From contig NZ_VEEP01000010.1 of the NCBI RefSeq assembly GCF_007678455.1, positions 148,858 to 212,857 of the forward strand: DNA of 64,000 nt, given 5' to 3'. The stretch's first letter is position 1. Every line of letters begins with the position of its first letter. Source of the stretch: Cytobacillus oceanisediminis 2691. GTDB taxonomy: Bacteria; Bacillota; Bacilli; Bacillales; Cytobacillaceae. The notes below the pieces were generated by a model, which was not told the DNA's origin, searched no databases, and saw only the letters and a list, made by a program, of their open reading frames with translations. Shown here piece by piece: positions 22,539-56,449 of this stretch. A program made the position numbers and the translations under genes.

Positions 22539-22848
22539 ACCTAAATGAACACATATCGTTTCTTTATGTGCCCCGTTTCTCCTTTCCACACCTAACCGGG
22601 CACATATCCAGCATTTATGTGCCCCGTTTTCCCTTTTCCTCCCCTGACCGAGCACATATCCGGCATTTATATGACCCGTTTCTCCCTTTCCTCCCCTGAC
22701 CGGGCACATATCCGGCATTTATATGACCCGTTTCTCCCTTTCCTCCCCTGACCGGGCACATATCTGCTTTTTATGTGACCCGTTTCCTATTCTCCTCAAT
22801 TAACGGGGAACATTTCACTTCTTTATGTTACCGAACTGACAACAAAAC
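22539..22848. repeat. Phased array 1: six 52-bp units
   Basis: Units start at 22539, 22591, 22643, 22695, 22747 and 22799, exactly 52 bp apart. A typical unit begins CCTGACCGGGCACATAT and carries the inverted partner TATGTGCCCCG 10 bases further, followed by a pyrimidine-rich part (TTTCTCCCTTTCCTCC). Units 3 and 4 are nearly identical and the outer units are diverged. The array lies between the recQ terminator and the start of the membrane-protein gene. Confidence 0.9.
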
Positions 22849-22877
22849 CCCTGGATAAAGTGGATAACATGAAAAAA

Positions 22878-22899
22878 GACGAAGCCCCCTGGCTTCGTC
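22878..22899 (-). terminator. Terminator of recQ
   Basis: GACGAAGCC (22878-22886) pairs with GGCTTCGTC (22891-22899), then TTTTTTC on the minus strand. Confidence 0.9.
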
Positions 22900-22904
22900 T
22901 CATC

Positions 22905-25037
22905 TTAATGTACCTTCTTTTTGGACATATACAAAAATGCCTTGATCATAAAATAACTGACCTCTTCTGGAAGCAGTTCCTTGATTGGCTTTAATCTGTC
23001 GCGGCCGGCTTCTGCCACGGCTTGCTCCAGGTCAGCTATAAACTCAGCAGGAATCAGCACGTCATAGTCGACTTCCATTCCCTGCTGGATGCATTGAATC
23101 AAGTGATTTTCGACCGTGCTTTCCACCAATTCACGCTTGGCGGCAATTTCAGCCACTGACAGTCTCTCCTGATGCAGCTTGTAGGTTTCAAGATGGGAAT
23201 CGCCAACAGCTTTTTTCGCCGGTTTCTTCACCGGCTCAGCTACTGCATTCATCACGGGCTGACGCTCTGGGTGCTCCTCGCAGAACTCGATGATCCGCTG
23301 AATGAATGGTGCGCCATACTTCTGCAGCTTATGCTCTCCAACTCCAGCCACACTAAGGAATTCTCCATCCGTCAGCGGCAGCTTCAGGCACATATCCTTC
23401 AGTGAGGAATCTGAGAAAATCACAAATGGCGGCACTTTTTCAGCAGAAGCAATCTCTCGCCGCAATTCCCGCAGTTCTTCAAATAACGGATCATCATTTG
23501 AAACCTGCTTGACCCGGACGGCTTCCTTCCTGAACACCTTGGTCTTGCCGAGCAAAACATCCTTCCCCTTTTCCGGGACATAAATCGTCGGATAAGTTCC
23601 GTGCTCTACACCAATCAGTTCCTGCGAAATCAGGAACTCGATCAGGTCATTCACCTGCTTCGTGCTCTTATTCTTCATCAATCCGTACGTCGGCAGTTTA
23701 TCTAGCCGGAATTCGAGCACCTTCTTATTTCGCGAACCGGTCAAAACATTCGCCGTCATTGCCTTGCCGTATTTCTGGCCCATCCGGATGATGCACGACA
23801 GCACCATTTGCGCATCCTTCGTGACATCCTCCGTTTCACGGGAGTCGGTACAATTGCCGCAGCGACCGCACGGCTCCGCATCACTCTCGCCAAAGTAATG
23901 GAGGATATAGGATTGCAGACATTCCTCCGTATGGCAGTAGCCGACCATTTGCTGCAGTTTTTCCAGTTCAGGCGCAATCCGTTCACGATCCGCAGACTGG
24001 TCAATCAAAAAGCGCTGCACCTGGACATCCTGGGACGAATACAGCACGACACATTCACTGTCCAGGCCATCACGACCGGCACGTCCAGCCTCCTGATAGT
24101 AGCTCTCCATATTTTTCGGAAGCTGAAAATGGAGGACATAGCGGATATTGCTTTTGTCGATGCCCATCCCGAATGCCGACGTCGCGACCATCACAGTGGC
24201 TTCATCCTGTAAAAAACGCTCCTGTTCTCGGTTCCGGTCTTCATCATTCATTCCTGCGTGATAGCGGGCGGCATTGAAGCCTTCCTTCTGCAGCCACTCA
24301 TAAAGCTGGTCGACATTCTTCCGTGTCGCTGCATAGATGATGCCTGCTTCCTTCTCATTCTTTTTGATAAAATCCCTTAAATAGGCCTGTCGGTCCTGGC
24401 CCTTTACGACAGAAAAACTCAGGTTGCTGCGCTCGAACCCTGTAATCACTGTATTCTCAGGGTTTATTTTCAGCGAGGCGCAAATGTCTTCCCTTACCTT
24501 TGGTGTCGCGGTTGCCGTCAAGGCGAGCACAATCGGTTTTCTAGGCAGGCGGTCAGCCAGGCCAGAAATCTGCAGATAGCTCGGTCGGAAATCGTGTCCC
24601 CACTGGGAAATACAGTGCGCTTCGTCGACAGCGATCAGCGGGATTTCCATGTCCTGCAAGTCATCGATGAACTCCCAGGATCCAAGCCGCTCTGGCGCGA
24701 TATATAACAGCTTGTACTTTCCGTTCCTGGCGTCATCCATCCGGCTGGCGGCTTCGCCGGCAGTCAGCGAACTGTTGATATACGTCGCCGGAATTCCGTG
24801 CTGGATGAGTGTGTCCACCTGGTCCTTCATCAAAGAAATCAACGGAGAGATGACAATGGTCGTCCCTGGCAGCACGAGTGCCGGGATTTGATAGACGATC
24901 GACTTGCCTCCACCGGTCGGCATGACGCAGACCGTATTCTTCCCTTCCAGCACCGAGGTGATTGCCTGGTCCTGTCCTCGGCGGAATGAGGAATAGCCAA
25001 AATGGTTTTGCAATAATTCATGGGCTTTTTGCAGCAT
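22905..25037 (-). CDS. recQ: RecQ-type ATP-dependent DNA helicase
   Basis: 710 residues, with AAAGGAG before the ATG. Helicase motifs are in order: PTGGGKSIVYQIPAL (Walker A), AVDEAHCISQWGHDF (DEAH box), LTATATPKVREDI, then AFGMGIDKSNIRYV and QEAGRAGRDG. The zinc-binding RQC part has CHTEECLQSYILHYF and CGRCGNC. An HRDC domain follows near residues 530-610 (PPFVIFSDSSLKDMC, GVGEHKLQKYG) and a helix-turn-helix tail (LSVAEIAAKRELVESTVENH) extends the C-terminus. It unwinds DNA 3' to 5' in recombination and fork repair. The extra tail makes it longer than the basic ~590-residue form. Confidence 0.93.
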   Translation of the reverse strand: MLQKAHELLQNHFGYSSFRRGQDQAITSVLEGKNTVCVMPTGGGKSIVYQIPALVLPGTTIVISPLISLMKDQVDTLIQHGIPATYINSSLTAGEAASRMDDARNGKYKLLYIAPERLGSWEFIDDLQDMEIPLIAVDEAHCISQWGHDFRPSYLQISGLADRLPRKPIVLALTATATPKVREDICASLKINPENTVITGFERSNLSFSVVKGQDRQAYLRDFIKKNEKEAGIIYAATRKNVDQLYEWLQKEGFNAARYHAGMNDEDRNREQERFLQDEATVMVATSAFGMGIDKSNIRYVLHFQLPKNMESYYQEAGRAGRDGLDSECVVLYSSQDVQVQRFLIDQSADRERIAPELEKLQQMVGYCHTEECLQSYILHYFGESDAEPCGRCGNCTDSRETEDVTKDAQMVLSCIIRMGQKYGKAMTANVLTGSRNKKVLEFRLDKLPTYGLMKNKSTKQVNDLIEFLISQELIGVEHGTYPTIYVPEKGKDVLLGKTKVFRKEAVRVKQVSNDDPLFEELRELRREIASAEKVPPFVIFSDSSLKDMCLKLPLTDGEFLSVAGVGEHKLQKYGAPFIQRIIEFCEEHPERQPVMNAVAEPVKKPAKKAVGDSHLETYKLHQERLSVAEIAAKRELVESTVENHLIQCIQQGMEVDYDVLIPAEFIADLEQAVAEAGRDRLKPIKELLPEEVSYFMIKAFLYMSKKKVH

Positions 25038-25118
25038 TTTGCGGACTCCTTTCAGTGAGAAAAAGTGGGGGAGTGATGAGGAAATACTCTTTCATTGTAA
25101 CAGATATACAGCAAAAAT

Positions 25119-25143
25119 GCCCTGCCCCAAAAAGGAGCAAAGC
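25119..25143 (-). terminator. Terminator of the sensor kinase gene
   Basis: On the minus strand GCTTTGCTCC (25143-25134) pairs with GGGGCAGGGC (25128-25119) using three G-U pairs, followed by ATTTTTG. Confidence 0.7.
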
Positions 25144-25153
25144 ACTTTTTATT

Positions 25154-26212
25154 TTACGATTTTCCATCCAGTGACCTTGGTAAACAAATCCTGATGGTTG
25201 TGCCTTCGCCAAGCTTGCTCTTGATATCAATACGGCCCTGGTGGAGGTCGATGATTCTCTTGCAGGTGATCAGCCCTAGCCCAGTCCCTTTTTCTTTTGT
25301 TGAATAAAACGGTTCGAATAACCGGTTGAACCTTGAATCTTCAATTCCGCAGCCCTTATCGATGATTGTTACCGAAACAGAATCCGTGCCCATTTCTTCG
25401 AGCCTTACTTCGATAAAATGTCCGTTGTCCTCTGTCGCCTCGATCGAGTTTTGCAGCAAATTAATCAGCACCTGTTTCATTTGCTTGCGGTCGCAATTCA
25501 AGAAAACTTCGGAATCGGAATTCAGCTCTATTTCAATACTTTTAAGGTTGGCCTGAGGTGCCATAAAGTGAATGCATTCCTGTAATAGCTTATTAAAATT
25601 TGTTTGCTGAAAATTGACATGTTCACTTGGTTTCGCAATGAACATGAACTCATTGACGATTTCATTGATCCTGTCCATCTCATCCAGCATGATGTCCAGG
25701 TACGGCAATAAAGTTTGGTCCGACACACTTTCTTTGATGATTTTCGTAAAACCTTTCAGTGATGTGAGAGGATTCCGGATTTCATGAGCGATGCCTGCCG
25801 CCAATTCACCAACTACGGAAAGCTTCTCCATCTGCTGGACCTGCTTTTCTCTCGTTTTTTCCTTGGTAATGTCGATCGACGTCCCGATTACCTCCACCGT
25901 CACTCCGTTTTGCAGGACAGGATTCAAGACAGCCAAGTAGTGGATTCCTCCTATGCTCCCTTCATAGTTGACATGCTCCCCGTTCCAAGCTTTTTCATAA
26001 AAAGCTGCCTTACGGAGAGCATGTTCAGCCGGAAGGAACTCAAATAAAGTTTTTCCCTCAATTAATTCTGGGCAAAGACCCATTTTTCCGAGAAGTTTGC
26101 CTTCAATAAACGTATGGATGAAGGTATTGTCTTTCTTTTCGAACTTGAAAATAAAGCCCGTTTCTCTTGGAATGAACTGTTCGTAATCCACCTTGCACTT
26201 CTGGTCATTCAC
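25154..26212 (-). CDS. Soluble PAS-domain histidine kinase (sporulation-kinase-like)
   Basis: 352 residues from a GTG at 26212. A PAS-like sensor covers about residues 15-115, ending in the typical VIGTSIDITKEKTREKQVQQ linker. The dimerisation/phosphoacceptor motif is AAGIAHEIRNPLTSLKGF near residue 140, with phosphorylated His. The ATPase domain has N box NLLQNSIEATED, G1 IIDKGCGI, F box FEPFYSTK and G2 GTGLGLITCKRI. No membrane segment or response-regulator gene is present, which is typical of cytoplasmic Kin-type kinases that feed the Spo0F phosphorelay. That assignment is inferred. It is between recQ and pncB. Confidence 0.88.
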   Translation of the reverse strand: MNDQKCKVDYEQFIPRETGFIFKFEKKDNTFIHTFIEGKLLGKMGLCPELIEGKTLFEFLPAEHALRKAAFYEKAWNGEHVNYEGSIGGIHYLAVLNPVLQNGVTVEVIGTSIDITKEKTREKQVQQMEKLSVVGELAAGIAHEIRNPLTSLKGFTKIIKESVSDQTLLPYLDIMLDEMDRINEIVNEFMFIAKPSEHVNFQQTNFNKLLQECIHFMAPQANLKSIEIELNSDSEVFLNCDRKQMKQVLINLLQNSIEATEDNGHFIEVRLEEMGTDSVSVTIIDKGCGIEDSRFNRLFEPFYSTKEKGTGLGLITCKRIIDLHQGRIDIKSKLGEGTTIRICLPRSLDGKS

Positions 26213-26300
26213 ACGGCAACACCCTTAGCAGAAGATTCGTTCTCTAATAATTCTTTATTCCTAGGGGAAATCCTTCATATTCGCAGGATATATTTAAAAA

Positions 26301-26324
26301 GCTGCCTCCCCCTCAGGAAGCAGC
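26301..26324 (-). terminator. Terminator of pncB
   Basis: GCTGCCTCC (26301-26309) pairs with GGAAGCAGC (26316-26324) with one wobble; TTTTTAA follows on the minus strand. Confidence 0.8.
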
Positions 26325-26332
26325 CCTCACCA

Positions 26333-27808
26333 TTACATTTTCTCTCCAGTCATCTCCATGACCTTTTCTCTCACTTCTTCTATATTGCGCATCTTGTTGT
26401 CCCAGCATTTCTGGCTGAGGTCCACTGGGTATTCTTCAGGATTAAGCATGCGTGTGTATTCTTCCCAAAGAACGCCGAGGCAGTATGTTGAATGCTTGCG
26501 GACTTCATCCAGGCTTGGCTGTTCATACACAAGCTTGCCCTCCTTAAAAATATCATGATGCAAATCTCTTGCATCAAAATTGGTGACAAACTTACTGATG
26601 AACGTGTGGACCGGGTGGAACATCTTCAAGCGCTTTTCCTGCTGCGGATTTTCGCCTTCAAGTGTGATGTAGTCCCCCTCAGAACGATTATTGGCTTTGT
26701 TGATGATTCTGTACACATTTTTGATTCCAGGCGTTGTCACTTTTTCAGGATTTGAGGAAATCTTGATGGTGTCCTCCATTCTTCCATCAGACTGCTCGAC
26801 TGAAACGATTTTATAAACAGCGCCGAGCGCAGCTTGTTCATAGGCGGTAATGAGCTTTGTGCCCACTCCCCAAATATCGATTTTTGCGCCCTGGGCTTTC
26901 AGGTTCATGATTGTGTATTCATCCAAATCGCTGGAGGCCACGATTTTTGCATCCTTAAATCCTGCTTCATCCAGCAATTTGCGTGCTTCCTTGGAAAGAT
27001 ACGCAAGGTCACCGCTGTCGAGGCGGATCCCGATAAAGTTGATTTTGTCGCCAAATTCCCTGGCAACCTTAATTGCGTTTGGCACACCGGACCTTAGAGT
27101 ATCATACGTATCAACAAGGAATACGCAGTCCTTATGCGTTTCGGCGTATTTTTTAAAAGCGGTATAGTCATCCTTGTAAGCCTGAACCATGGAATGCGCA
27201 TGAGTCCCAGCGGTTGGAATTCCAAACAGCTTGCCGGCACGTACGTTACTGGTCGAATCAAAACCTCCGATATAGGCAGCGCGAGTGCCCCAGAGCGCCG
27301 CATCCAGTTCATGCGCCCGGCGTGTACCGAACTCCATCGCCACTTCATCCTTCACCACCTGCTTGATACGGGAAGCCTTTGTCGCGATCAATGTCTGGTA
27401 GTTGACAATGTTCAGCAGCGCAGTTTCAATCAGCTGCGCTTCAGCAAGCGGAGCATCCACCCGAATCAGCGGCTCATTGGCAAAAACAATCTCCCCCTCC
27501 TGCATAGAACGGATCGAGCCAGTGAATTTCATATCTTGTAAAAAAGCAAGGAAATCTTCTCCGAACTTTCCTTCCTCTCTTAAATACTGAATATCATCCT
27601 CTGTGAAGCCAAAGTTCTCGATGTACTGGATGATTTTTTCTAGGCCTGCAAAAACGGCATATCCATTGCCGAAAGGAAGCTTGCGGAAAAACAAATCAAA
27701 CACCGCGCGGCGATTATGGACGCCGTCACGCCAGTAAGTTTCCATCATATTTAACTGATATAAGTCCGTATGGAGCATTAAACTATCATCTGTGAATTTC
27801 GTACTCAT
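26333..27808 (-). CDS. pncB: Nicotinate phosphoribosyltransferase
   Basis: 491 residues from the ATG at 27808, seven bases after GGAGG (a TTG codon directly before it is also in frame). Family blocks include MLHTDLYQLNMMETYW at the N-terminus, KLPFGNGYAVFAGLEK, MEFGTRRAHELDAALWGTRA, GTHAHSMVQAY (His phosphorylated in the reaction cycle), VDTYDTLRSGVPNAI and IRLDSGDLAYLS. The enzyme makes nicotinate mononucleotide from nicotinate, PRPP and ATP, a step of NAD salvage. The upstream neighbour encodes nicotinamidase, which supplies its substrate, so the two form a functional cluster. Confidence 0.95.
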   Translation of the reverse strand: MSTKFTDDSLMLHTDLYQLNMMETYWRDGVHNRRAVFDLFFRKLPFGNGYAVFAGLEKIIQYIENFGFTEDDIQYLREEGKFGEDFLAFLQDMKFTGSIRSMQEGEIVFANEPLIRVDAPLAEAQLIETALLNIVNYQTLIATKASRIKQVVKDEVAMEFGTRRAHELDAALWGTRAAYIGGFDSTSNVRAGKLFGIPTAGTHAHSMVQAYKDDYTAFKKYAETHKDCVFLVDTYDTLRSGVPNAIKVAREFGDKINFIGIRLDSGDLAYLSKEARKLLDEAGFKDAKIVASSDLDEYTIMNLKAQGAKIDIWGVGTKLITAYEQAALGAVYKIVSVEQSDGRMEDTIKISSNPEKVTTPGIKNVYRIINKANNRSEGDYITLEGENPQQEKRLKMFHPVHTFISKFVTNFDARDLHHDIFKEGKLVYEQPSLDEVRKHSTYCLGVLWEEYTRMLNPEEYPVDLSQKCWDNKMRNIEEVREKVMEMTGEKM

Positions 27809-27874
27809 CAAAAAACCTCCAAATTAACTGCATCTAATTCATCATGGACATTGCACGGATGCTTTTAAAAACAC

Positions 27875-27905
27875 GGAAAACCGACTTACCTTTTTACCGT
27901 TTTCC
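27875..27905 (-). terminator. Possible terminator between pncA and pncB
   Basis: GGAAAAC (27875-27881) pairs with GTTTTCC (27899-27905), followed by GTGTTTTTAAAAG on the minus strand. Its presence suggests pncB may have partly independent expression. Confidence 0.55.
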
Positions 27906-27930
27906 CTGCCAAAACCACGTATTCAATATC

Positions 27931-28482
27931 CTACCTGACCTCTGCCCCAATCGTGTTCTCAAAATGACGAAGTGACCATTCATGCCCGACCTGGTCAAAA
28001 GAAGCCACCGCATTCTTATACACAATAACCTTAAATCCCTTATTGTAAGCATCGACCGCTGTATGCAGCACGCAAATATCCGTACATACCCCGACAAGAT
28101 GGACTTCCGTGATGCCCCGCTCGCGCAGCTTTATTTCCAGGTCCGTACCGGCAAACGCAGAATACCTTGTCTTGTCGATATAATACACATGGTCCAGATG
28201 TTTGTTCTCGTCATAAACTTCTTGAAGGCTGCCGAACAAATCTCTGCCCTTTGTGCCGCGGATATTATGTGGCGGGTACAATTTTGTTTCCGGATGGAAC
28301 TCGTCCCCCTCATCATGGACATCAATCGCGAAAACAACATAATCGCCATTTTTGATGAATTCCTGCGTCACGCCAACCAGATTCTCTTCAATTGCCTGGC
28401 CAGGCACACCGCAAGTCAGCCGCCCATCATCCGCCACGAAGTCATACGTATAGTCGATATTGATCAACGCTTTCTTCCCCAT
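27931..28482 (-). CDS. pncA: Nicotinamidase (isochorismatase-like)
   Basis: 183 residues from the ATG at 28482, downstream of AAAGGATGTGG; the longer in-frame start at 28554 is less likely. The catalytic triad is visible: Asp in ALINIDYTYDFVADDG near residue 9, Lys in YYIDKTRYSAF near residue 104, and Cys in LVGVCTDICVLHTAVDA near residue 140. AIDVHDEGDEFHPET matches the metal/substrate loop. It hydrolyses nicotinamide to nicotinate, which pncB then uses. Confidence 0.93.
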   Translation of the reverse strand: MGKKALINIDYTYDFVADDGRLTCGVPGQAIEENLVGVTQEFIKNGDYVVFAIDVHDEGDEFHPETKLYPPHNIRGTKGRDLFGSLQEVYDENKHLDHVYYIDKTRYSAFAGTDLEIKLRERGITEVHLVGVCTDICVLHTAVDAYNKGFKVIVYKNAVASFDQVGHEWSLRHFENTIGAEVR

Positions 28483-28676
28483 TATGTATCCACATCCTTT
28501 TATCTTATTATCTTTTATTTTCATCCAAATATGATTTTCAGGCAAATTTTTCATTTCGAATGGCGGGCTTTTGGTACATCTATATTAGCTTGCCTGATTT
28601 AGTTATCAGAGGTTGTCAGTAAAAATGGTTGATCACAGCTAAATATTGATCAGCATACATCGATTTATTTTGATAT

Positions 28677-28787
28677 AGGAATAAAACCAAAATCTAAGGA
28701 ATATATCCTGCTTTCTCAGGAATAAATCGATAGGTTTAAGGAATATATTTTCATTTTTAAGGAATATAATCATTTTCCAAGGAATAT
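28677..28787. repeat. Phased array 2: six AGGAATA boxes, 20-21 bp apart
   Basis: AGGAATAWA begins at 28677, 28697, 28718, 28739, 28760 and 28780. The bases between the boxes are AT-rich and not conserved. The array lies between the dagK terminator (28818-28840) and the pncA start. Confidence 0.85.
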
Positions 28788-28817
28788 CCTCCTATACCCT
28801 ACTCCAAACCACAAAAA

Positions 28818-28840
28818 AACCACTCCAACCAGGAGTGGTT
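28818..28840 (-). terminator. Terminator of dagK
   Basis: AACCACTCC (28818-28826) pairs perfectly with GGAGTGGTT (28832-28840), followed by TTTTTTG on the minus strand. Confidence 0.9.
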
Positions 28841-28845
28841 TCCAA

Positions 28846-29787
28846 TCATTCTGCTTTAAAGTTCAATTCCAGGTTCTCCGGACGGTCTTCTGGACGGATT
28901 TCGTCGAGCGGCACGTAGACTTCGATGTGCCTGAACAGGTTTTCGAATTCGGCTGGAAGGTTTCCGCCGTATTCTCCGTCGAGATTCAGCTGGACTGTTT
29001 CCTTCGAATGCACCTTGATCCGGTTGGCTTGTGTGTATATTACACCCGGGTCATTGATGTGCTCGCCACGGACTGCAAGTGAAGCAATCCTGATAAAATC
29101 AGCCAGGTTAGTCTTTTTCAAAATCAACAGCGAGAACATCCCGTCATTGATTGATGAGTTCGGTGCCAGGCGCTCAAATCCGCCGACAGAGTTCGTCAGC
29201 CCGACGAGGAACATCATGACCTCGCCTTCATACAGCTTGCCATCATACTCGATGGTCACTTCAGATGCTCTGATCGATGGCAGCATCTCGATTCCTTTTA
29301 AATAGTATGCGAGCTGGCCGAGCATCGTCTTGAGCTTGCTTGGAACTTCGTATGTCAGCTCAGTCAGCCTGCCGCCGCCTGCGATATTTATGAAATATTT
29401 ATCGTTGATCCGGCCAACGTCGACCGGGATCGTTTCGCCTTTTATAATGATGTCGACCGCTGCCTCGATATCCCGCGGAATATGCAGTGCGCGGGCAAAG
29501 TCGTTCGTTGTGCCAACTGGAATGACGCCAATTTTCGGGCGGTATTCCTGCTCGGCGATTCCATTGACCACTTCATTGATCGTTCCATCGCCACCAGCCG
29601 CAATCACGAGGTCATATTTCCGCTCGACTGCAATCCTGGCAGCCTGCGTCGCATCACCCTCGCATGTCGTTGCATGGCATGATGTTTCATAGCCGGCATT
29701 CTCCAGCTTCACCAGAACTTCCGCAAGATGCTTTTTAAAAACTTCACGGCCAGAAGTCGGATTATAAATGATTCTTGCTCTTTTCAT
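28846..29787 (-). CDS. dagK: Diacylglycerol kinase (YerQ/DgkB type)
   Basis: 313 residues from the ATG at 29787 (MKRARIIYNPTSGRE), which matches the start I recall for B. subtilis DgkB; upstream in-frame starts lack a better ribosome site. The kinase signature is LVIAAGGDGTINEVVNG near residue 60 (GGDGT), followed by IGVIPVGTTNDFARAL and FINIAGGGRLTELTYEV. The C-terminal beta domain carries NLDGEYGGNLP. The enzyme phosphorylates diacylglycerol released by teichoic acid synthesis to phosphatidic acid. It is monocistronic with its own terminator. Confidence 0.94.
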   Translation of the reverse strand: MKRARIIYNPTSGREVFKKHLAEVLVKLENAGYETSCHATTCEGDATQAARIAVERKYDLVIAAGGDGTINEVVNGIAEQEYRPKIGVIPVGTTNDFARALHIPRDIEAAVDIIIKGETIPVDVGRINDKYFINIAGGGRLTELTYEVPSKLKTMLGQLAYYLKGIEMLPSIRASEVTIEYDGKLYEGEVMMFLVGLTNSVGGFERLAPNSSINDGMFSLLILKKTNLADFIRIASLAVRGEHINDPGVIYTQANRIKVHSKETVQLNLDGEYGGNLPAEFENLFRHIEVYVPLDEIRPEDRPENLELNFKAE

Positions 29788-30066
29788 ACCCATCATCCTA
29801 CTTAATATGGTTTTTGATTCCATCATTTTACATCATAGCTCATATTTCTCATCCAGGCAATCTCCCGGATACTACCGGATATATCATAAACTACTTTACA
29901 CCTATTTGCCAAAAAGAAACTCAGTATTTAATCAAAGTGTTAACTATCGTATTTTTCAGAAAAACTCTTTCAATCATACCATTTATTTTTTACAATACAG
30001 AAAGGATGGTTACATAATTTTACAATACACCAGAACCTCTAATCTTGACTAAAAGGGTGACTTTTT

Positions 30067-30681
30067 ATGATCTGGCTGATTCTCCTGGCTGCTTATTTAA
30101 TTGGCTCGATTCCGACCGCATTATTGGTCGGCAAATACTTTTTCCATGTGGATATCAGGGATCACGGCAGCAAAAATCCCGGCGCCACCAATACACTGCG
30201 GGTAATGGGCAAAAGAGCTGCTATCATTGTCCTGCTGATTGATGTGGCAAAAGGAATGCTGGCGGCCTCACTTCCGCTGACTTTCAATGTACCGATTGAA
30301 CCTTTGTATGCGGGATTGATTGCGGTAGTTGGCCACTGTTTCCCCATCTTCGCCGGATTCCGCGGCGGCAAGGCAATCGCCACGACAGCTGGTGCCCTGC
30401 TGATTGTTAATATCGGGATGTTCCTGGCCGTCTATGTGACATTTTTTGCCGTTATTTTCCTTACCAAATATGTATTTATGGGCTCTATTTCAGTTGGAAT
30501 CGCGATGCTGATTTATTCGTTCTTCTCTCCCGATATCAATGAGCCGCTTCTTTTCACTGCTTTTATTATTTTATTAATTTTCCTGCACCGTTCAAACTTG
30601 CAGAACTTCTTTAACGGCATAGAACCAAAGATCAATGATAAAAAAGTGAAGGGAGACCGCATTACCCCTAAGAACTTTTGA
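30067..30681 (+). CDS. plsY: Acyl-phosphate:glycerol-3-phosphate acyltransferase PlsY
   Basis: 204 residues with five membrane helices. The three PlsY loop motifs are present: GSKNPGATNTLRVMGK (GS.N.GA.N), VAVVGHCFPIFAGFRGGKAIATT-type segment (GH..P.F..F.GGKA.AT), and HRSNLQNFFNGIEPK (H..N..R/G.E). It transfers the acyl group from acyl-phosphate to glycerol-3-phosphate, the first membrane-lipid step in Gram-positive bacteria. It is alone on its transcript, divergent from dagK, which recycles phosphatidic acid in the same pathway. Confidence 0.94.
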   Translation: MIWLILLAAYLIGSIPTALLVGKYFFHVDIRDHGSKNPGATNTLRVMGKRAAIIVLLIDVAKGMLAASLPLTFNVPIEPLYAGLIAVVGHCFPIFAGFRGGKAIATTAGALLIVNIGMFLAVYVTFFAVIFLTKYVFMGSISVGIAMLIYSFFSPDINEPLLFTAFIILLIFLHRSNLQNFFNGIEPKINDKKVKGDRITPKNF

Positions 30682-30688
30682 CGAAAGG

Positions 30689-30708
30689 CCATGGTTGTCC
30701 AACCATGG
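30689..30708 (+). terminator. Terminator of plsY
   Basis: CCATGGTT (30689-30696) pairs with AACCATGG (30701-30708), followed by TCTCTTATTTTTT. Confidence 0.9.
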
Positions 30709-30868
30709 TCTCTTATTTTTTAAATATATTAATAAAGTAAATTACTATTTATGGAATAACTTTTTTAGCGAAAAAATAGATTGTTAATCATTTACGTAAA
30801 ATGATAGAATATTAATTGTATTAGCAATATTTTTTTAATATTTTCTCAAAATAACAAAGGGGGAAAAG

Positions 30869-37473: not shown

Positions 37474-37687
37474 AATAGCACCTCCATTTTTAAATCGTCA
37501 GACAATAATAATGATCATAGCAAAGTTTTCCGCGTTAAAGCAATACAAGCCTTGCTTTTTGTACTATTTTAACAGAAGTGAAGGAAGATCGCAGATATAT
37601 AATGTCATTTTGCAAATGTGTTCTTCTTTTCATAGTTTGCGGCTGATTTACAGAGGGAAGGAAAAGCCTAAGGAGGGTAAAAAAAAC

Positions 37688-38386
37688 TTGGCTATTTTGA
37701 CTTTTTTTCTGGTAATCCTGTTAGCAGGAGTCCATCTATCTGTAAAATACTACTCCAAATTGATGGAGCAGCCGCGAAAACCAATTCTAAGCTTTGCCGG
37801 CGGTGCATCCGTTGCCTATGTCATCATTCATCTTTTACCTGAATTCCAAAAGATCCAGAAGGAGTTCAATATCCTTATCCCCATCCCAAAAAAATTTGAA
37901 GATTATAGTTTGTACTTAGTTGCGACTGTTGGCTTTATTGCCTTTTATTCTATAAATCATTTTGTGAAATCATCAAAACCGGATACAACCGTCTTTACTT
38001 TTCATATAGGAGCCTTCGTTCTCTATAACTCATTTATAGGCTATTACCTGATTAAAGGGTTGAAGCAGGAGCCTAAATCCTTAATCATTTTCACGGTCGC
38101 TTTCATTCTACACCTGATGGTTAATGATGTGGGGCTTCGGCTGGACCATCAAAAGCGATATGACCCATGGGGTTCGCTGCTACTGGCTCTTTCTGTTTTT
38201 GCGGGTTGGCTGCTCGGCTTCTTCGTCACACTCCCTACCACCTTGTTTGCTCTTTGGTTCAGTTGGCTCGCAGGAGGCATCTTATTAAACACCGTTAAGG
38301 AAGAACTGCCAAAAGAACGCAAAAGCAAGCTGCTTCCGTTTATTTTAGGAGTTGGCATTTCTACATTATTGTTCATTTTTATTTAA
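37688..38386 (+). CDS. Polytopic membrane protein (ZIP-like layout)
   Basis: 232 residues from a TTG at 37688 that follows AAGGAGG; the longer frame from 37511 adds a poorly structured stretch and no ribosome site. About seven membrane helices are visible. The block LSFAGGASVAYVIIHLLPEF resembles the helix-IV motif of ZIP metal transporters (G...H..PE), and DVGLRLDHQKRYDPWG contains further His and Asp. This may be a ZIP-like transporter, but the similarity is short. It is divergent from gatC. Confidence 0.6.
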   Translation: MAILTFFLVILLAGVHLSVKYYSKLMEQPRKPILSFAGGASVAYVIIHLLPEFQKIQKEFNILIPIPKKFEDYSLYLVATVGFIAFYSINHFVKSSKPDTTVFTFHIGAFVLYNSFIGYYLIKGLKQEPKSLIIFTVAFILHLMVNDVGLRLDHQKRYDPWGSLLLALSVFAGWLLGFFVTLPTTLFALWFSWLAGGILLNTVKEELPKERKSKLLPFILGVGISTLLFIFI

Positions 38387-38461: not shown

Positions 38462-38467
38462 ATCTTT

Positions 38468-38541
38468 TATAATTCCATAAAGCCAGAAGCCCTCTAAAAT
38501 ACATTATAATTCCATAAAGCCAGAAGCCCTCTAAAATACAT
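38468..38541. repeat. Exact 37-bp tandem duplication
   Basis: A 37-bp unit starting TATAATTCCATAAAGCCAGA occurs twice, at 38468-38504 and 38505-38541, ending at the TetR stop codon. It appears to be a recent duplication, as the copies are identical. Confidence 0.9.
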
Positions 38542-39170
38542 TATTTTCTATCCTCGGCAATTCCAAGTGCCATTTTTAAATAGTCCACAAACAATATCGA
38601 TTGCTCCTTGATTTTCAGGTCTGCCCTCGATAACATGGCATCGTCTACAGCTAAGCCGTCGATAAACGTAATGATTGAACGCGCAATAATTTCATGACCA
38701 AACCTCGAGCTGAATTCACCGCTTTTTTGGCCATGTTCAATGATATGCGCAAATATCTTCAAACCATTTTCATATCGAGCGGCCCCGTATTCTCTCCTGT
38801 GTTCATCATTTCTTCCAATAATAAAATACTCAAGTTTTGCCGGCGCTAAAGGATCCATTTCATCATCAGGTTCCCCATCGTTCCCAAACATGGTTTTCAT
38901 CAGCATATTCCAATAAGAGGTAGCATGTTGTTTTACCATATCCAGCGTTACCTCTAATTCTATATCTAAAGCTTCTTCAAGGATTGTTTCAAACACATCT
39001 TCTTTACTAGAAAAATATTGATACAGACCGCCTCTGCTGACACTCGCAGCATCCATGATGTGCTTCATCGTGGCCCGCTCGTAACCATGCTCAATGAACA
39101 CCTCCTTGGCCGCCTGCAGTATCTCAGCTCGACGCTGTTTCATGTGCTCCTGACTTACTTTCGGAGACAT
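38541..39170 (-). CDS. TetR/AcrR-family repressor
   Basis: 209 residues. The N-terminal DNA-binding domain is clear: AEILQAAKEVFIEHGYERAT, then MKHIMDAASVSRGGLYQYFS. The C-terminal ligand-binding domain is long and helical. Its gene overlaps the end of the upstream MFS gene by 47 bases and is the second gene of the operon. Two palindromes with TGTCGTT half-sites in the operon promoter are the likely operators, so the protein represses its own transcript and the efflux pump. The pairing resembles B. subtilis yfiR-yfiS. Confidence 0.88.
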   Translation of the reverse strand: MSPKVSQEHMKQRRAEILQAAKEVFIEHGYERATMKHIMDAASVSRGGLYQYFSSKEDVFETILEEALDIELEVTLDMVKQHATSYWNMLMKTMFGNDGEPDDEMDPLAPAKLEYFIIGRNDEHRREYGAARYENGLKIFAHIIEHGQKSGEFSSRFGHEIIARSIITFIDGLAVDDAMLSRADLKIKEQSILFVDYLKMALGIAEDRK

Positions 39171-41081: not shown

Positions 41082-41500
41082 GATGATGGACAGTTCTTTC
41101 GCTTTTCCCTCAATTTTTGTCCATCATAGGCTCGATGACGGACACTTTTTTCGTATTTCCTTCGATTTTTGTCCGCATAGCCTTGTTGACGGACACTTTT
41201 TTCGATTTTCCTTCGATTTTTGTCCATCATAGCCTCGGTGACGGACACTTTTTTCGATTTTCCTTCGATTTTTGTCCGTCATAACCTTGATGACGGACAC
41301 TTTTTTCGTGTTTCCTTGGATTTTTGTCCATCATAGCCTTGTTGACGGACACTTTTTTCGTATTCCCTTCGATTTTTGTCCATCATTGCCTTGATGACGG
41401 ACAGTTCTTTCGTGTTCAGCACTATTTTTGTCCCTCATTGCCTTGATGACGGACAGTTATTTCTTTTTCCACAGTTTTTTTGTCCGTCATTACCTCAATG
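41082..41500. repeat. Phased array 3: eight 52-bp units
   Basis: Units beginning GATGACGGACA start near 41082, 41134, 41185, 41237, 41289, 41341, 41393 and 41445, spacing 51-52 bp. Each continues with CTTTTTTCGNNTTNCCTTCG-type sequence and then TTTTTGTCCRTCAT, which forms a 10-bp inverted repeat with the next unit's ATGACGGACA. The array is between the aceA terminator and the YueI-like gene. Confidence 0.9.
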
Positions 41501-44872: not shown

Positions 44873-44985
44873 GTGCAATTTTGCTTATGAAGCGTGCGAT
44901 TATGTAGTCTTATCGTGCAATTCGTCCTCTTTTCGGTGCAATTAATAGCGGGGATAGTGCAATTCCTGGTCTTTACCGTGCAATT
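44873..44985. repeat. Phased array 4: six GTGCAATT boxes, exactly 21 bp apart
   Basis: GTGCAATT (one variant GTGCGATT) begins at 44873, 44894, 44915, 44936, 44957 and 44978. The 13 bases between boxes are not conserved. It lies between the rocA terminator and the aceB promoter. Confidence 0.95.
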
Positions 44986-46748: not shown

Positions 46749-46862
46749 GGTCGATATATTTTGGAAAGTGGTCGATATAATCGTAAATGTGGTCGATATA
46801 TCTCATTTTCCGCTGATATATTCAAAAATGCGGTCGATATAATCTGATTTCCGCCAATAAAA
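46749..46862. repeat. Phased array 5: GGTCGATATA boxes, 20-21 bp apart
   Basis: Boxes start at 46749, 46770, 46791, 46811 (CGCTGATATA) and 46832, with a weak sixth (CGCCAATAA) near 46852. The array lies between the divergent rocA and DinB-like genes, the only array without a terminator next to it. Confidence 0.9.
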
Positions 46863-49314: not shown

Positions 49315-49328
49315 GGCGTGTACACCTC

Positions 49329-51503
<2,175 letters not shown>

Positions 51504-53756
51504 TTAAGCCTTAGTAATCGGCGCGAACTTGGCCAGCAATCGCTTGATTCCTGTTGGGCTTGGGAAGGCTATATCCAGCTCGGTTCCTTCACCGGAGCCT
51601 TTCACGCTGACTACCGTTCCTGTTCCCCACTTGCCATGCTGCGCTTTGTCTCCAACCTTCCAGTCAATGCCTTCACCGCCGCTTGCAGCTGCGACTGGAC
51701 GGGTAACAGCGCCGCGGGCTGGCATGGACGGTCTTGCAGAAGCGCCTGGTCTGCCGCCGCTGGCTGATGCTGGTCTGCCGCCGCTTGTTGGAGCAGGCCT
51801 TCTGACTTTCGGCACGGCATCTTCAATTAAATCACCAGGAATTTCTTTGATAAAACGTGATTCCGGGTTCATATTCGTGCGGCCGAAAAGCGTACGCATC
51901 TGTGCATTCGTGATGAATAACTCTTCTTCAGCACGGGTGATTCCCACGTAGGCAAGACGGCGCTCTTCCTCCATCTCATCCTCTTCCATCAAGGAGCGGC
52001 TATGCGGGAAGACTCCTTCTTCCATACCGATCAGGAAGACAACCGGGAACTCAAGTCCCTTGGCTGAGTGCAGGGTCATCAGTGTGACAAAATCGGTTTT
52101 TTGTTCGCCATCATCGTCAAGACGGTCGATATCGGCAACAAGTGCCAAATCCGTCAGGAATGCAACGAGGCTCTTATCTTCACTGCTTTCTTCAAAGCTT
52201 TTTGTTACGGTTAAAAATTCATCTATGTTTTCAAGTCTGCTTTGTGATTCCAGCGATTTTTCCGCCTTAAGCATATCGCGGTAGCCTGTCTTATCCAGGA
52301 CTTCCTCCACCAGCTCAGTGACCGACAGGTATTCCTGCTGGTGTGTGTAATTGCTGATCAGATTGCGGAACTCGGCCGCAGCTTTTTCTGCCTTCGGGCT
52401 GAGTCCGATCATTTCAATCGTCTCGAGCGCCTGGAACATCGATAGATCATGCATCGTCGCGAAGTTGGCGATTTTATCTATCGATGTTGAACCGATCGCG
52501 CGCTTCGGAACATTGATGATCCTCTGCAAGCTGATATCATCATCCGGATTCGAAATCAGGCGCAGATAGGCCAGGATGTCCTTGATTTCTTTTCTGTCAT
52601 AGAACTTGATGCCGCCGACAATCGAGTAATCAATGTTCGATTTCAGGAATGATTCCTCGATCACACGCGACTGGGCGTTCGTCCGATACAGGATTGCGAT
52701 ATCGGACAGCTTGCGGCCCTGGCGCATAAGCTCCTGGATTTTGCCGATCACGAACTGAGCTTCGCCCTGCTCACTATCGGCACGATAATACATTATTTTG
52801 TTGCCGTCGGCATTTTCCGTCCAGAGATTTTTCGGCTTCCGGTTCATATTGTTCTGGATGACCATATTCGCTGCCAGCAAAATCTTCTTTGTTGAGCGGT
52901 AATTCTGCTCCAGCAAAATCACACTCGCTCTTGGGTAGTCCTTTTCAAAAGAAAGGATATTCGCTATGTCAGCACCGCGCCAGCGATAGATCGACTGGTC
53001 GGAGTCCCCGACGACACAAAGGTTCTGGAAGCGCTGCGCAAGCAGTTTTACCAGCATGTATTGTGCCCTGTTCGTATCCTGGTACTCATCGACGTGGATG
53101 TACTGGAACTTGCGCTGATAGTACTCAAGCACTTCAGGCACGCGGATGAACAGCGTGATTGTCGACATGATCAGGTCATCGAAATCAAGCGCGTTATTTT
53201 TGCGAAGCCTGCGCTGATACTCTTCGTACACATCGCTTACCTTCTGTGAAAAATAATCCCCGGCTGTTTTTGCATACTCTTCCGGCGTGATCAATTCGTT
53301 CTTCGCCGAGCTGATCGTTCCTAAAATCGCACGAGGGTCGAACTTTTTCGGATCCATATTCTTGTCCTTCAAAATCGACTTAATGACCGATTGCTGGTCT
53401 GTTGAATCAAGGATCGTGAAGTTCCGGTTATAACCGAGACGGTCAATGTCTCTGCGCAAAATCCGCACACACATCGAGTGGAACGTTGAAATCCAGATAT
53501 CATCTGCCGCTCCGCCCATCATTTTCTGAATCCTTTCGCGCATCTCGCGTGCCGCTTTATTCGTAAATGTGATCGCCAGGATGTTATAAGGATTTACCCC
53601 TTTTTCCACCATTAAATACGCAATCCTGTGTGTCAAAACTCTTGTTTTACCAGAGCCTGCCCCTGCCATCAGAAGCAGCGGTCCGTCGACTGTCTTGACA
53701 GCCTTCTGCTGCTCCGGATTTAGGCCGTTCAATAATTTATCCGTTAAAAATTGCAC
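51504..53756 (-). CDS. pcrA: ATP-dependent DNA helicase PcrA
   Basis: About 750 residues; the GTG at 53756 (then [20 protein letters not shown]) is the likely start, while ATG 53771 is also possible. Walker A is [20 protein letters not shown], and further motifs are [62 protein letters not shown] and [19 protein letters not shown]. The C-terminal Gly/Ala/Pro-rich linker ([12 protein letters not shown]) leads to a Tudor-like domain ([20 protein letters not shown]) that binds RNA polymerase. PcrA is an essential 3'-5' helicase in repair and in removing RecA and stalled polymerase. Confidence 0.96.
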
Positions 53757-53821
53757 ACTCTTCACCACCATACAAACATTTGTTCTTATTTTATCTTATA
53801 ATATATTTCCATACAACTGGA

Positions 53822-54508
53822 TTATTGCTTTACTGAAGCAACTGTCTTCAATGCCTCGTCCAGGTTGCTGTAGATTACATTCCCAACAACGATGACATCG
53901 GCATGTGCAGCCATTTCCGCTGACTGCTGCGCCGTTTCGATCCCACCACCGTAAAAGAGGACGGTTTGATCGAGAACTTCTTTTGCAGCTTTTACATATT
54001 CAGGATTGCCGTACGTGCCGCTGTATTCCAAATAGAAAATTGGCAGGTTGAACATTTTTTCCGCCATCATCGCGTAGGCTTGTACATCTTCGACTGAAAG
54101 CTCGGTCTTCGCCTCGGTCAATCTGGCTGCCTTGCAATCCGGATTGAGGATGCAATAGCCTTCCATTTTTAGCTCGTCCCAATCCATCAGATCGCCATAT
54201 TCCTTGACTGCTTTATGATGCAGCCCGATAATCCACTCCGGATTGCCGCTGTTCAGCACCGTCGGGATAAAATAAAAATCAAAACCCGGCGTAATCGAGT
54301 CGATTGTCGAAACCTCGAGAATGCACGGAACCGTATAGCGGCGGACGCGGGCCATTAAATCGAGGACGCCTTCTAGCGTGACTCCATCCGTTCCCCCAAC
54401 CAGGATTGCGTCGGTTCCAGACTCGCAAATTCTTTCTAATTCTTCATCAGTGATCTCTTTATTTGGATCGAGTTTGAACACATGTCTCCACTCGCGAACA
54501 TCGTACAT
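53822..54508 (-). CDS. pcrB: Heptaprenylglyceryl-phosphate synthase PcrB
   Basis: 228 residues. The TIM-barrel contains [18 protein letters not shown] (Lys/Asp for phosphate and metal), [49 protein letters not shown] and [20 protein letters not shown], as in bacterial PcrB/archaeal GGGP synthase homologues. In Bacillus the enzyme joins heptaprenyl diphosphate and glycerol-1-phosphate. It lies just upstream of pcrA, a conserved order. Confidence 0.95.
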
Positions 54509-54670
54509 CCCAGAATTGCCCCCATTCTATCTATCCATTCCACCATTATAGCATTTGTTGCCGGTATATAAAAAAGGAAACATAAGGTTGTTTGCGAGAA
54601 ATCCGCAAGCGCTGACGCCAGGCTTTTTTCAAAGCGAAAAATAGATGAATGCTCCTAAATATGCGCAAAA

Positions 54671-54695
54671 AAGCGTCCCGCCTTCCGGAACGCTT
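54671..54695 (-). terminator. Terminator of the SSS symporter gene
   Basis: AAGCGT plus CC (from 54671) pairs with GG plus ACGCTT (to 54695) in a mostly paired GC-rich stem; TTTTGCGC follows on the minus strand. Confidence 0.7.
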
Positions 54696-54706
54696 TCAGC
54701 AATTTT

Positions 54707-56137
54707 TTACAAATCACGGTGTTCGTATTGCTCTTTGAACAATTTTGAAAAAACATAGAAACTGATTCCGCTCACAACCAATGCGAGATAAATAGGATCA
54801 AGCCCGAAGAAGCTGATGAACTCCTTTTCGCCAAGATAGACTGCGAGACTCCCAAGGAACAAGGACGCCAGGCTGCCTGCCGGGGTCGCTTTTTCCCAGA
54901 CATGCCCGAGCACATAAGGAATGAACGCGCCTCCCGCTCTCAATGTAAAAGAGAACATTAATAGCGTGATAATATCCGAAACATTCCAGATTGCTGTCAG
55001 CAAGGCGAAGCCGGAAACCACATACATCGTGTAGCGGACCATTTTTAACAGCTTACCATCCGCTGCATCCTTGTTGATATATTGATGGTAAATATCATTT
55101 GTGAAAATGGATCCAGCCGCCAATAGATTACTAGATGCGCTCGACATCGTCGCCGAAATCAGTGCGGCGAACAGGATACCGGTCACGACATCCGGCAGCA
55201 CCTCCATCGCCAACACTGGCAATGCGTACTGCGCACCTCTTTCCATCAGCATCGCCCCGTCAATCTGGCCGTTCTCGACCATTCCGTACATGAATAGACC
55301 GATCATCGCAGGGATGAATGCGAACAGCACGTAGACGAAAGAAGTAATATAGGAAGCTTGCTTCGCTGCCTTGCCGTCCTTGGCGGAATAATAGCGCTGG
55401 ACCGCCTCCTGGCCAACCGTGAAGGAAGCGATATACATAACGACCAGTGCAAGAATCGTCCCCCAGCCAGCACCATCCACGAGACTCCACTTCGCATCCG
55501 GTATATTGGCCGTCACTTGCTCGAAACCACCGCCTGCCTGAAGCGTGAATGGAATGATCAGCCCCATCCCGACGATGATGAAGATCCACTGGACCACATC
55601 GGTGTAAACAACACTGTACATGCCGCCCATCACACTATATAACGTAACAACAACGGTGACGATGATGACAGAAACAGTGTAGCTCCAGCCGGTCATGACT
55701 GACAGGATCGTCGCCGATGCGATGAACTGAACCGCCGTCAGACCGACCATCGGCAGCAGCATGATAATGGATGTTACCAGTGAAATCGCTTTCCCGTACC
55801 GCCTGCGAAAGTATTCAGGTACCGTTTTTACAGCAGCTTCCCGCAGCATAGGCGCGAGGAACGCCAGCACGACGAAGGCAATCGCCATTGTGATGACATA
55901 CCAGACTGCCGACAGCCCCCAATCTCCATAAGCTTTTTCAACCACCCCGAGTGACGACCCGCCGCCAACCTCAGTCGCTGCAAGGCTTCCCGCCAGCAGC
56001 CACGGACCCATCTTACGGCCCGCAACCAAAAAGTCCTCATTATCATTGATTTTTTTCGAAGATATGTACCCAATCATGATCATAATACCTAAATAAATAA
56101 TCACAATCGCAATGACCGTCAAGCTTGCCCCCATCAA
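54707..56137 (-). CDS. Sodium:solute symporter (SSS family)
   Basis: 476 residues with about thirteen membrane helices. The N-terminal part shows FLVAGRKMGPWLLAGSLAAT, then EVGGGSSLGVVEKAYG, and GGMYSVVYTDVVQWIFI matches the conserved SSS helix VI region. It differs from the window's PutP in the motif after helix II (no ADMSGW), so the substrate is not proline with certainty; pantothenate, short organic acids or similar are possible. The gene occupies the stretch between pcrB and yerC where B. subtilis has yerD. Phased array 6 lies upstream. Confidence 0.88.
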   Translation of the reverse strand: MMGASLTVIAIVIIYLGIMIMIGYISSKKINDNEDFLVAGRKMGPWLLAGSLAATEVGGGSSLGVVEKAYGDWGLSAVWYVITMAIAFVVLAFLAPMLREAAVKTVPEYFRRRYGKAISLVTSIIMLLPMVGLTAVQFIASATILSVMTGWSYTVSVIIVTVVVTLYSVMGGMYSVVYTDVVQWIFIIVGMGLIIPFTLQAGGGFEQVTANIPDAKWSLVDGAGWGTILALVVMYIASFTVGQEAVQRYYSAKDGKAAKQASYITSFVYVLFAFIPAMIGLFMYGMVENGQIDGAMLMERGAQYALPVLAMEVLPDVVTGILFAALISATMSSASSNLLAAGSIFTNDIYHQYINKDAADGKLLKMVRYTMYVVSGFALLTAIWNVSDIITLLMFSFTLRAGGAFIPYVLGHVWEKATPAGSLASLFLGSLAVYLGEKEFISFFGLDPIYLALVVSGISFYVFSKLFKEQYEHRDL

Positions 56138-56201
56138 CTCACTCCAAAGTTTATATTTTACCTACCCCCTACCCTTTTAAAATAACTGGTAACCTGGTTT
56201 A

Positions 56202-56449
56202 TTGGCGATTTTAGATTTTTATTGGCGATTTCACCCTGTTTTTTGGCGATTTTTCATTTTTTTGGCGAAAATACCTGCTTTTTTGGCGATAATCAGATTT
56301 TATTGGCGAACTGGAAAATAACCTGGTTTTTTTCCATCTTATTTAGCGACAATTTCTTTATATAGCGAAAAATCCATTTTTATAGCGACTTTCTGATTTT
56401 TATAGCGAAAAGTTCATTTATATAGCGACTTTTTCATTTTTATAGCGAA
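56202..56449. repeat. Phased array 6: TTGGCGAT boxes then TATAGCGA boxes, 20-bp period
   Basis: TTGGCGA begins at 56202, 56222, 56243, 56262, 56283 and 56303. After one empty period, (T/A)TAGCGA begins at 56343, 56362, 56382, 56402, 56422 and 56442. Interboxes are T-rich. Two related motifs in one array with shared phase suggest fusion of two six-box arrays. It lies between the yerC terminator and the symporter gene. Confidence 0.92.

Follow-up and report, generated by a model that had tools for sequence, protein, structure and literature searches.

Background

Short repeats set at regular distances are known from several bacterial systems. Plasmid iteron arrays (units of 17-22 bp) and partition centromeres comprise direct repeats at about two turns of the helix, in few copies, with a motif specific to each array and often an inverted repeat nearby, and the pneumococcal BOX elements have the modular build boxA-boxB(n)-boxC, with repeated middle units. 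A study of BOX elements describes them as small interspersed chromosomal repeats nearly limited to one species group, which its authors judge to be parasitic, with extensive secondary structure (PMC3049150). Bacterial interspersed mosaic elements (BIMEs) and the repetitive extragenic palindromic (REP) sequences are described as binding sites for several proteins (PMC2817692), and a report on Beggiatoaceae gives 169 intergenic sets of TAACTGA direct repeats in one genome, a single heptamer that usually lies immediately before start codons and for which a role in translation is proposed (PMC4679880). Here we describe arrays of short phased boxes in the intergenic DNA of a 64,000-nucleotide stretch (hereafter the window) from the 4.9-Mb draft genome of Cytobacillus oceanisediminis 2691 (genome G000; contig NZ_VEEP01000010.1, here G000:C11, positions 148858-212857). 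Arrays of this kind are common in Mesobacillus, where we place G000 with 20 further genomes of that genus for comparison, and are present in some other Bacillaceae and near relatives. The P5C dehydrogenase encoded in the window is 97% identical to the proteins of Mesobacillus subterraneus and Bacillus sp. ISL-45.

The arrays come in two geometries. Type A has direct boxes of 8-10 bp, one per 20-21 bp, and type B has units of 52-53 bp, mostly with two inverted boxes. The iterons, BIMEs, BOX elements and TAACTGA repeats are the nearest known systems and none is shown to fit. Type A shares with iterons the direct repeats at about two turns, but the arrays are chromosomal, number tens in 846 kb and have no adjacent replication initiator gene among the typed neighbors in the window. 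BOX elements are likewise interspersed and nearly restricted to one group, and their modular build resembles that of family A1; the phased arrays differ in keeping 8-10 bp boxes at fixed spacing. BIME/REP elements resemble the arrays in being many per genome and, as in most type B arrays, in having regularly spaced alternating units (PMC2817692). However, membership in that group, with its palindromic alternating unit, was considered and rejected: type A boxes are direct and non-palindromic, type B has family-specific gaps within a direct period fixed at 52-53 bp, and families are many. The genome holds one match to PF01797. The TAACTGA repeats similarly place a short word in many intergenic direct-repeat sets, but there it is a single heptamer, and the report's abstract makes no mention of helical phasing (PMC4679880). 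A clustered regularly interspaced short palindromic repeat (CRISPR) array, in which long identical repeats alternate with unique spacers, was rejected as well, the common part being merely 8-11 bp with 10-13 bp between copies; cas genes were not searched. Our search of the open-access literature found no description of such arrays in Bacillaceae (other literature was not covered), and we file them as a variant, apparently new, of intergenic phased repeats. The reading we consider best is that they act at the level of DNA as platforms on which sequence-specific proteins bind, and that they may serve as interchangeable blocks or insulators separating transcription units; we hold it tentatively, at somewhat under an even chance.

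Geometry of the arrays

The first-pass annotation of this DNA had listed six arrays, at 22.5, 28.7, 41.1, 44.9, 46.8 and 56.3 kb. All are present at those positions, and their box counts (6, 6, 8, 6, 5-6 and 6+6) were recovered with a box-chain detector that asks for at least four 8-mer boxes with at most one mismatch, spaced within 2 bp of the period, and that misses decayed arrays. The arrays and their terminal dyads are as follows.

22549..22829, no strand assigned: type B array of family B6 (TTATGTGACCCG / CGGGCACATA inverted boxes), 6 units of 51-52 bp
28676..28788, plus strand: type A array of family A4 (TAAGGAATATA), 6 boxes at 20-21 bp, between dagK-like and isochorismatase-like genes
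41084..41490, no strand assigned: type B array of family B3 (GAYGGACA / TGTCCRTC inverted boxes), 8 units of 51-52 bp
44873..44985, plus strand: type A array of family A3 (GTGCAATT), 6 boxes with a period of exactly 21 bp, flanked by genes for P5C dehydrogenase and malate synthase
46749..46862, plus strand: type A array of family A5 (GGTCGATATA), 5-6 boxes at 20-21 bp, closing with an inverted A1-like box (CGCCAATAA)
56198..56310, plus strand: type A array of family A1 (TTATTGGCGA), 6 boxes at 19-21 bp
56306..56336, plus strand: terminal dyad of the A1 array (GCGAACTGGAAA...TTTTTTTCCA)
56342..56449, plus strand: type A array of family A2 (TATAGCGA), 6 boxes at 19-20 bp
56445..56479, plus strand: variant terminal dyad of the A2 array (GCGAATTGGGAA...TTTTTACCAATT) with a weaker fold than the A1 dyad (z -1.5)

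Across window positions 1101-64000, the detector found 20-21 bp arrays only at 28.7, 44.9, 46.8, 56.2 and 56.3 kb when set to periods 14-34, and 52-bp arrays only at 22.5 and 41.1 kb when set to periods 35-64. Chance produced few such arrays: none in three shuffled windows at each of two thresholds (periods 14-34), and one when the six intergenic regions that bear arrays were put through 600 dinucleotide shuffles (periods 14-64). In 846 kb of G000 we placed 60 arrays, with periods of 20, 21, 26, 27, 52 or 53, which extrapolates to about 350 per genome.

The annotation had raised the question of whether such periods might occur at random frequency genome-wide. In a sample of 1.65 Mb from Mesobacillus (846 kb of G000, 400 kb of G006, a second and near-identical genome of the same species, and 100 kb each of G008, G010, G003 and G005; periods 10-130), they cluster outside open reading frames (ORFs) at 20-21 and 52-53. 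Once arrays within ORFs of 120 amino acids or more are set aside, 101 remain, some of which are orthologs counted twice because the G000 and G006 sequences overlap; their median period is 20 in 22 arrays, 21 in 22, 52 in 41 and 53 in 11, and 26, 27, 30, 45 and 97 in one array each. Of 23 arrays inside ORFs, 19 have periods divisible by three. We also note a 750-amino-acid ORF (G000:C221:60917-62135, locus L092) with a mostly 15-bp coding repeat (CTGAAGA...).

The period is characteristic of the family. Among exact neighboring boxes no more than 120 bp apart, TAGCGA boxes lie 20 bp apart in 53 of 63 pairs, GTGCAATT boxes 21 bp apart in 19 of 25, CCCTTAT boxes 53 bp apart in 110 of 131 and TTGACAG boxes 52 bp apart in 85 of 102. 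The period of 52 bp, taken earlier to be five helical turns, holds as a period, but that description is incomplete, in that most 52-bp units also carry two inverted boxes: 9-letter arms complementary at 8 or 9 positions occur in 26 of the 33 type B consensus units tested, against about 0.17 expected per random unit by an arithmetic estimate. The spacing between inverted neighbors varies among type B families (25/28, 22/30 and 20/32) while the sum is constant at 52-53; the constraint in type B thus bears on the direct period of about five turns and not on the inner spacing.

A core, [GT]GAC[AC], noticed post hoc, is common to several type B families. Of 49 consensus units of this type, 14 have it on both strands (0.9 on average in shuffles, 5 at most) and 29 on either strand (14.5 on average in shuffles, 24 at most); these units come from G000, G003, G005, G008, G010 and other loci, and arrays of the same family among them are not independent.

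Intrinsically curved DNA, in which phased tracts would bend the helix with no dedicated protein, might also produce a helical period. In a calculation with wedge parameters, bending exceeds that of 95% of controls, made by permuting the unit columns, in 10 of 29 type B arrays. The same holds for only 3 of the 29 rows of type A (one of the 29 being a row inside an ORF), however, and the conserved feature is the letters of the boxes rather than tracts, which leaves this explanation highly improbable.

Conservation of boxes at orthologous slots

Comparison between species separates boxes from spacers. At six orthologous type A slots, boxes differ at 148 of 1159 positions (12.8%), spacers at 618 of 1633 (37.8%) and flanks at 1133 of 3046 (37.2%), in a count limited to species that keep the same family at the slot; since species with another family or with nothing are left out, the count favors conserved arrays, and its species pairs are not independent. 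Boxes were picked by motif match, which is a bias, and a neutral simulation with the same picking expects 31.6%. Boxes lie below spacers in all six slots, with box and spacer divergences of 0.155 and 0.279 at 44.9 kb, 0.142 and 0.376 at 46.8 kb, 0.075 and 0.286 at 28.7 kb, 0.145 and 0.396 at 56.2 kb, 0.185 and 0.323 at 56.3 kb, and 0.056 and 0.503 at a slot between purF and purM (names from family search). The omitted rows, which have another family, a shortened or decayed array, none, or were not examined, are G005, G008 and G010 at 28.7 kb, G010 at 44.9 kb, G005 and G010 at 56.2 kb, G003 and G010 at 56.3 kb, and G000 and G010 at purF-purM (where G010 was not examined); G006, near-identical to G000, was not used at the first five slots.

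The purF-purM slot is the most explicit example. Six GTGCAATT registers at exactly 21 bp are kept there in G006, G008, G003 and G005, and over the six genome pairs the boxes differ at 16 of 288 positions (5.6%) and the spacers at 245 of 468 (52.4%). Since boxes change more slowly than spacers and spacers change like flanks, selection appears to act on boxes at fixed spacing in type A. The claim of selection on phased boxes is thus supported by the species comparison for type A, in the arrays that were kept, and cooperative binding on one face of the DNA would fit the arrays.

The same comparison bears on whether the arrays are interspersed parasitic or mobile repeats of the BOX, REPIN (REP doublet forming a hairpin) or MITE (miniature inverted-repeat transposable element) kind, cassettes that open with a start module, continue with n boxes, close with an end module, settle wherever intergenic DNA tolerates them and have no function for the host. 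Parasites should decay evenly, yet at orthologous loci that retained the array, boxes are preserved amid drifting spacers. A search for REP-associated tyrosine transposases by their Y1 family, PF01797, gave a single match in the genome. The arrays at 56 and 41 kb, the two that were tried, had no blastn match in phage or plasmid records, blastn being weak for short boxes with free spacers, and the three-fold GTGCAATT pattern, the only one run against viral contigs, matched one of them, at the contig end. Other features, which concern the build and distribution of families and are described below, favor such an origin, and we consider it unlikely overall, though not negligible.

Turnover and exchange of arrays

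Conservation has its counterpart in turnover. When G000 is compared with G006, the difference in length amounts to roughly whole units in 8 of 12 type B intervals (at most 5 versus 14 boxes), whereas in type A the number of boxes is equal in 6 of 6 comparisons and the interval length in 5 of 6; the row C11:67857 (period 20), which lies within an ORF and has no counterpart in G006, was dropped from the type A comparison. These differences are relevant to the proposal that the arrays are minisatellites, which arose through slippage during replication or through recombination and persist by chance, the copying mechanism and not a bound protein setting the period. The shifts by whole units in type B would follow from it, as would a unit length steady at 52-53 despite the family-dependent inner spacing of the boxes. 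The constancy of type A runs against it, as do the GTGCAATT arrays, where identical boxes are joined by unrelated spacers (the spacers of A1 and A2 are AT-rich and partly alike), and neither inverted boxes nor recurring families are expected from slippage. We regard this explanation as rather unlikely for the arrays as a whole. The suggestion made earlier of a slippage product is therefore improbable for type A, but it may explain the whole-unit copy number shifts of type B, which could also, or instead, be an expanding minisatellite.

One family may also be found in the place of another. At the 28.7-kb slot, the type A family A4 is present in G000 and G003, the type B family B5 in G008, and about 1.5 B5 units, by eye, in G010. 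At the 44.9-kb slot, the GTGCAATT array is present in G000, G003 and G005 and decayed in G008, G010 has a 52-bp array instead, ISL-45 has a single unit of that 52-bp kind by eye, and no GTGCAATT array was seen in the nearest relatives (L009-L012). Twenty genomes have the gene at the aceA slot, that of the 41.1-kb array: nine carry B3 boxes in at least two units (just two, by eye and from exact boxes, in G002 and G004), two a B3 remnant (G007 and G018) and three a B6 array (G005, G014 and G015), and G017 has, within an inserted stretch, a pair of B2 boxes at a distance of 52 bp that enclose an inverted one. Thus, a given place can be taken over by another family or even by the other class. Extra sequence with the look of inserted genes, putatively IS200-like and CPBP-like by eye, lies beside or replaces the array at the 28.7-kb slot of G005 and the 44.9-kb slot of G003 and G008.

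Arrays can also be missing. The 46.8-kb array is degenerate in L009 and was not seen in L011 and L012, and the purF-purM array, kept in G006 (around C1:325820), is absent from G000 (around C11:213935-213994), where one altered box is left. Conservation among relatives, which the annotation had named as a means of judging the arrays, is therefore of two kinds: boxes are kept at orthologous slots that retain the array, and some close relatives have no array there.

Box families and their distribution

About a dozen box families were seen, and most recur. The annotation had given each array a private motif and held that the arrays share no sequence; neither statement survives a genome-wide view, in which the motif families come back. 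Arrays of TTATTGGCGA, TATAGCGA, GTGCAATT, AAGGAATA, GGTCGA and GAYGGACA boxes recur elsewhere in the genome, and the 22.5-kb B6 array has 9 extra matches at 6 other places.

Several families are related in build. A1 (TTATTGGCGA), A2 (TATAGCGA) and A7 (TTCCGCGA) have the half GCGA in common, and their arrays end in one common terminal dyad, GCGAAYTGGNAA...TTTTTYCCA, whose pattern has 15 matches in the genome, two of them being both strands of one palindromic copy. The spacer GAGTTCACAA occurs six times in the G000 DNA read, always inside A1 arrays and three times as the first spacer. A5 arrays at three loci (window 46749-46862, G000:C11:117359 and G000:C221:302574) share a box order, in which GGTCGA-type boxes are followed by one CCGCYGATA box, GGTCGATA and an inverted A1-like box. 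The common dyad, the confinement of GAGTTCACAA to A1 arrays, the shared A5 order and the restriction of families to a genus are the points in favor of mobile repeats.

Boxes occur outside arrays as well. Compared with three shuffles, solo boxes are in excess for TTATTGGCGA (12 versus 2-6), AAGGAATA (77 versus 43-61), GGTCGATA (21 versus 9-14), GACGGACA (22 versus 11-14) and ACCCTTATG (7 versus 3-5), and are not in excess for GTGCAATT (17 versus 40-53) and TATAGCGA (14 versus 12-18). Some solo boxes may be decayed arrays.

The words are confined to narrow groups. Of 193 genomes in the GTDB family, 15 have three GTGCAATT boxes at 21 bp; Mesobacillus accounts for 14 of these, out of 21 genomes, and a different genus for one (the pattern reversed as a control matched once, in another genome), and three TTATTGGCGA boxes occur in all eight Mesobacillus drawn and in none of 340 other genomes of the order (the reversed control matched in two other genomes). 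The geometry extends further. Among 80 loci around P5C dehydrogenase in other genomes, 17 have an array outside ORFs with a period of 19-22 or 51-55; when multiples of one array are counted once, 22 of the 24 distinct rows outside ORFs fall in these two classes (periods 14-64 scanned), two of the 22 with a weak consensus (L057 and one in L058), and the box words differ from those of Mesobacillus. In 15 genomes outside the genus, 11 of 12 arrays outside ORFs have a period of 21 or 52; ten of these arrays come from G025, part of whose stretches were selected for holding GTGCAATT arrays, one from G091 and one from G197 (another family of the order), and the stretches read from the other 12 genomes hold no array outside ORFs. 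A 50-kb stretch of E. coli K-12 contains no arrays.

Genomic setting and transcripts

All six arrays first listed lie upstream of a minus-strand gene, because most genes in the window are on the minus strand, but this is not a rule. Among the 60 arrays placed in the genome (neighbors being ORF calls, not annotation), the flanking genes are codirectional for 43, convergent for 13 and divergent for 4; the array-free intergenic regions of at least 200 bp number 104, 26 and 54, respectively. For the 43 codirectional arrays, the median distance is 76 bp from the upstream stop codon and 152 bp to the start codon that follows, and 29 are closer to the stop. In 34 codirectional cases the stop is no more than 200 bp away, and in 24 of these a terminator-like hairpin separates stop and array (without a control set), and in the window, by eye, in five of the six arrays, as had been claimed.

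If each array were a multi-site operator for the regulator of the following gene, the distance of 152 bp to the next start codon would be suitable, and phased multi-box operators are well known. However, 13 of 60 arrays are convergent and just 4 divergent, the reverse of what operators would give, and the same gene is preceded by different families in sister species; local operators are accordingly quite improbable. Orientation to transcription is mixed overall, with arrays in the same and in the opposite orientation to codirectional genes numbering 4 and 8 for A1, 2 and 9 for A2, 6 and 2 for A3 (four of the six being the purF-purM slot in four genomes), 1 and 1 for A4, and 1 and 2 for A5.

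This mixed orientation also disfavors RNA-level elements, in which the boxes would act in transcripts as repeated hairpins or as sites for proteins or small RNAs. When four stretches were folded as single-stranded DNA, two did beat their shuffles (z -4.6 and -2.8; the others -1.5 and -1.7), and the best conserved array lies between purF and purM and is probably co-transcribed. On the other hand, the interior units of 21 type B arrays show no compensation, with 1359 paired cells versus 1358.6 expected for the short gap and 1354 versus 1355.3 for the long gap, and we consider an RNA-level role very improbable. An apparent hairpin compensation in type B (z 9.7) was rejected, as it was gone once units crossing array ends were excluded. 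Window positions 22300-57000 have no Rfam match at gathering scores.

The neighbors typed in the window are recQ-like, lipid kinase, isochorismatase-like, DUF1694, isocitrate lyase, malate synthase, P5C dehydrogenase, DinB-like, sodium/solute symporter and Trp-repressor-like genes. The B6 array is flanked by the recQ-like gene (22905-25037, minus strand) and a gene at 21944-22372 (minus strand) with no family match, the B3 array sits past the terminator-like hairpin of the isocitrate lyase gene, and the 46.8-kb array lies between divergent genes. Elsewhere in the window, positions 1-1818 (minus strand) hold an open frame with a unique N-terminal part and a long Gly-Pro-Thr triplet tail, which has the appearance of a collagen-like surface protein, and positions 38467-38544 hold a perfect tandem duplication of a 37-bp unit, outside the phased periods, at the gap between the ORFs 37511-38386 (plus strand) and 38541-39170 (minus strand).

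A proposed role for the arrays

Platforms for sequence-specific proteins at the level of DNA fit the narrow set of periods, the conservation of boxes next to freely varying spacers, the lack of a fixed orientation, the low number of arrays between divergent genes and the exchange of families. Under this proposal, each family would be bound as double-stranded DNA by a cognate sequence-specific protein, which would sit box after box along one side of the helix, and the whole row would form a nucleoprotein block or topological insulator separating neighboring transcription units. Were the row to act as a whole block, its geometry would outweigh its letters and families would be interchangeable. 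A role in blocking read-through or in insulating supercoils is suggested by the position of the arrays and the exchangeability of families.

A number of observations weigh against the protein-platform proposal, among them the leaning of the six-slot count noted above. Ten of 34 codirectional arrays have no preceding terminator-like hairpin, the purF-purM array is probably within an operon and a poor fit to a post-terminator role, and A2 is skewed in orientation (9 opposite, 2 same). Helical phasing alone leaves the lack of three- and four-turn arrays unexplained, and the family-specific spacing of inverted boxes fits a simple dimer model poorly. The excess of solo boxes over shuffles in five of seven motifs suggests that the row is perhaps not the sole working unit. 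No array is present at the aceA slot in 5 of 20 genomes (G001, G011, G013, G016 and G019) and, together with the absence at purF-purM in G000, this argues that these two arrays are dispensable; stretches of 120 kb from each of three genomes of the same family (G050, G083 and G186) have no array outside ORFs. The purF-purM array, the solo boxes and the arrayless slots and genomes speak against an essential or purely post-terminator role. No binding protein was found, and none was sought by experiment or co-occurrence.

In its widest form, the proposal would be that some Bacillaceae have a previously undescribed chromosome-wide system of phased protein-binding arrays, whose geometry, two turns for direct boxes and five for units of inverted ones, is kept across genera while its words diversify by genus and swap at a locus, with a protein family of fast-changing recognition code coating intergenic DNA for insulation or nucleoid organization; we regard this as possible but doubtful. 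The box families, the presence and absence of arrays among the 21 Mesobacillus genomes and the swaps of family at one slot provide handles for tests. If the protein-platform reading holds, a few hundred intergenic regions per genome, by extrapolation, would carry an unnamed DNA-binding system in which the geometry is conserved and the words are not. Nature would then have supplied a set of orthogonal phased arrays, already tested by evolution, on which roadblocks, insulation and nucleoid structure could be studied, and much of the intergenic DNA of these bacteria would be accounted for.

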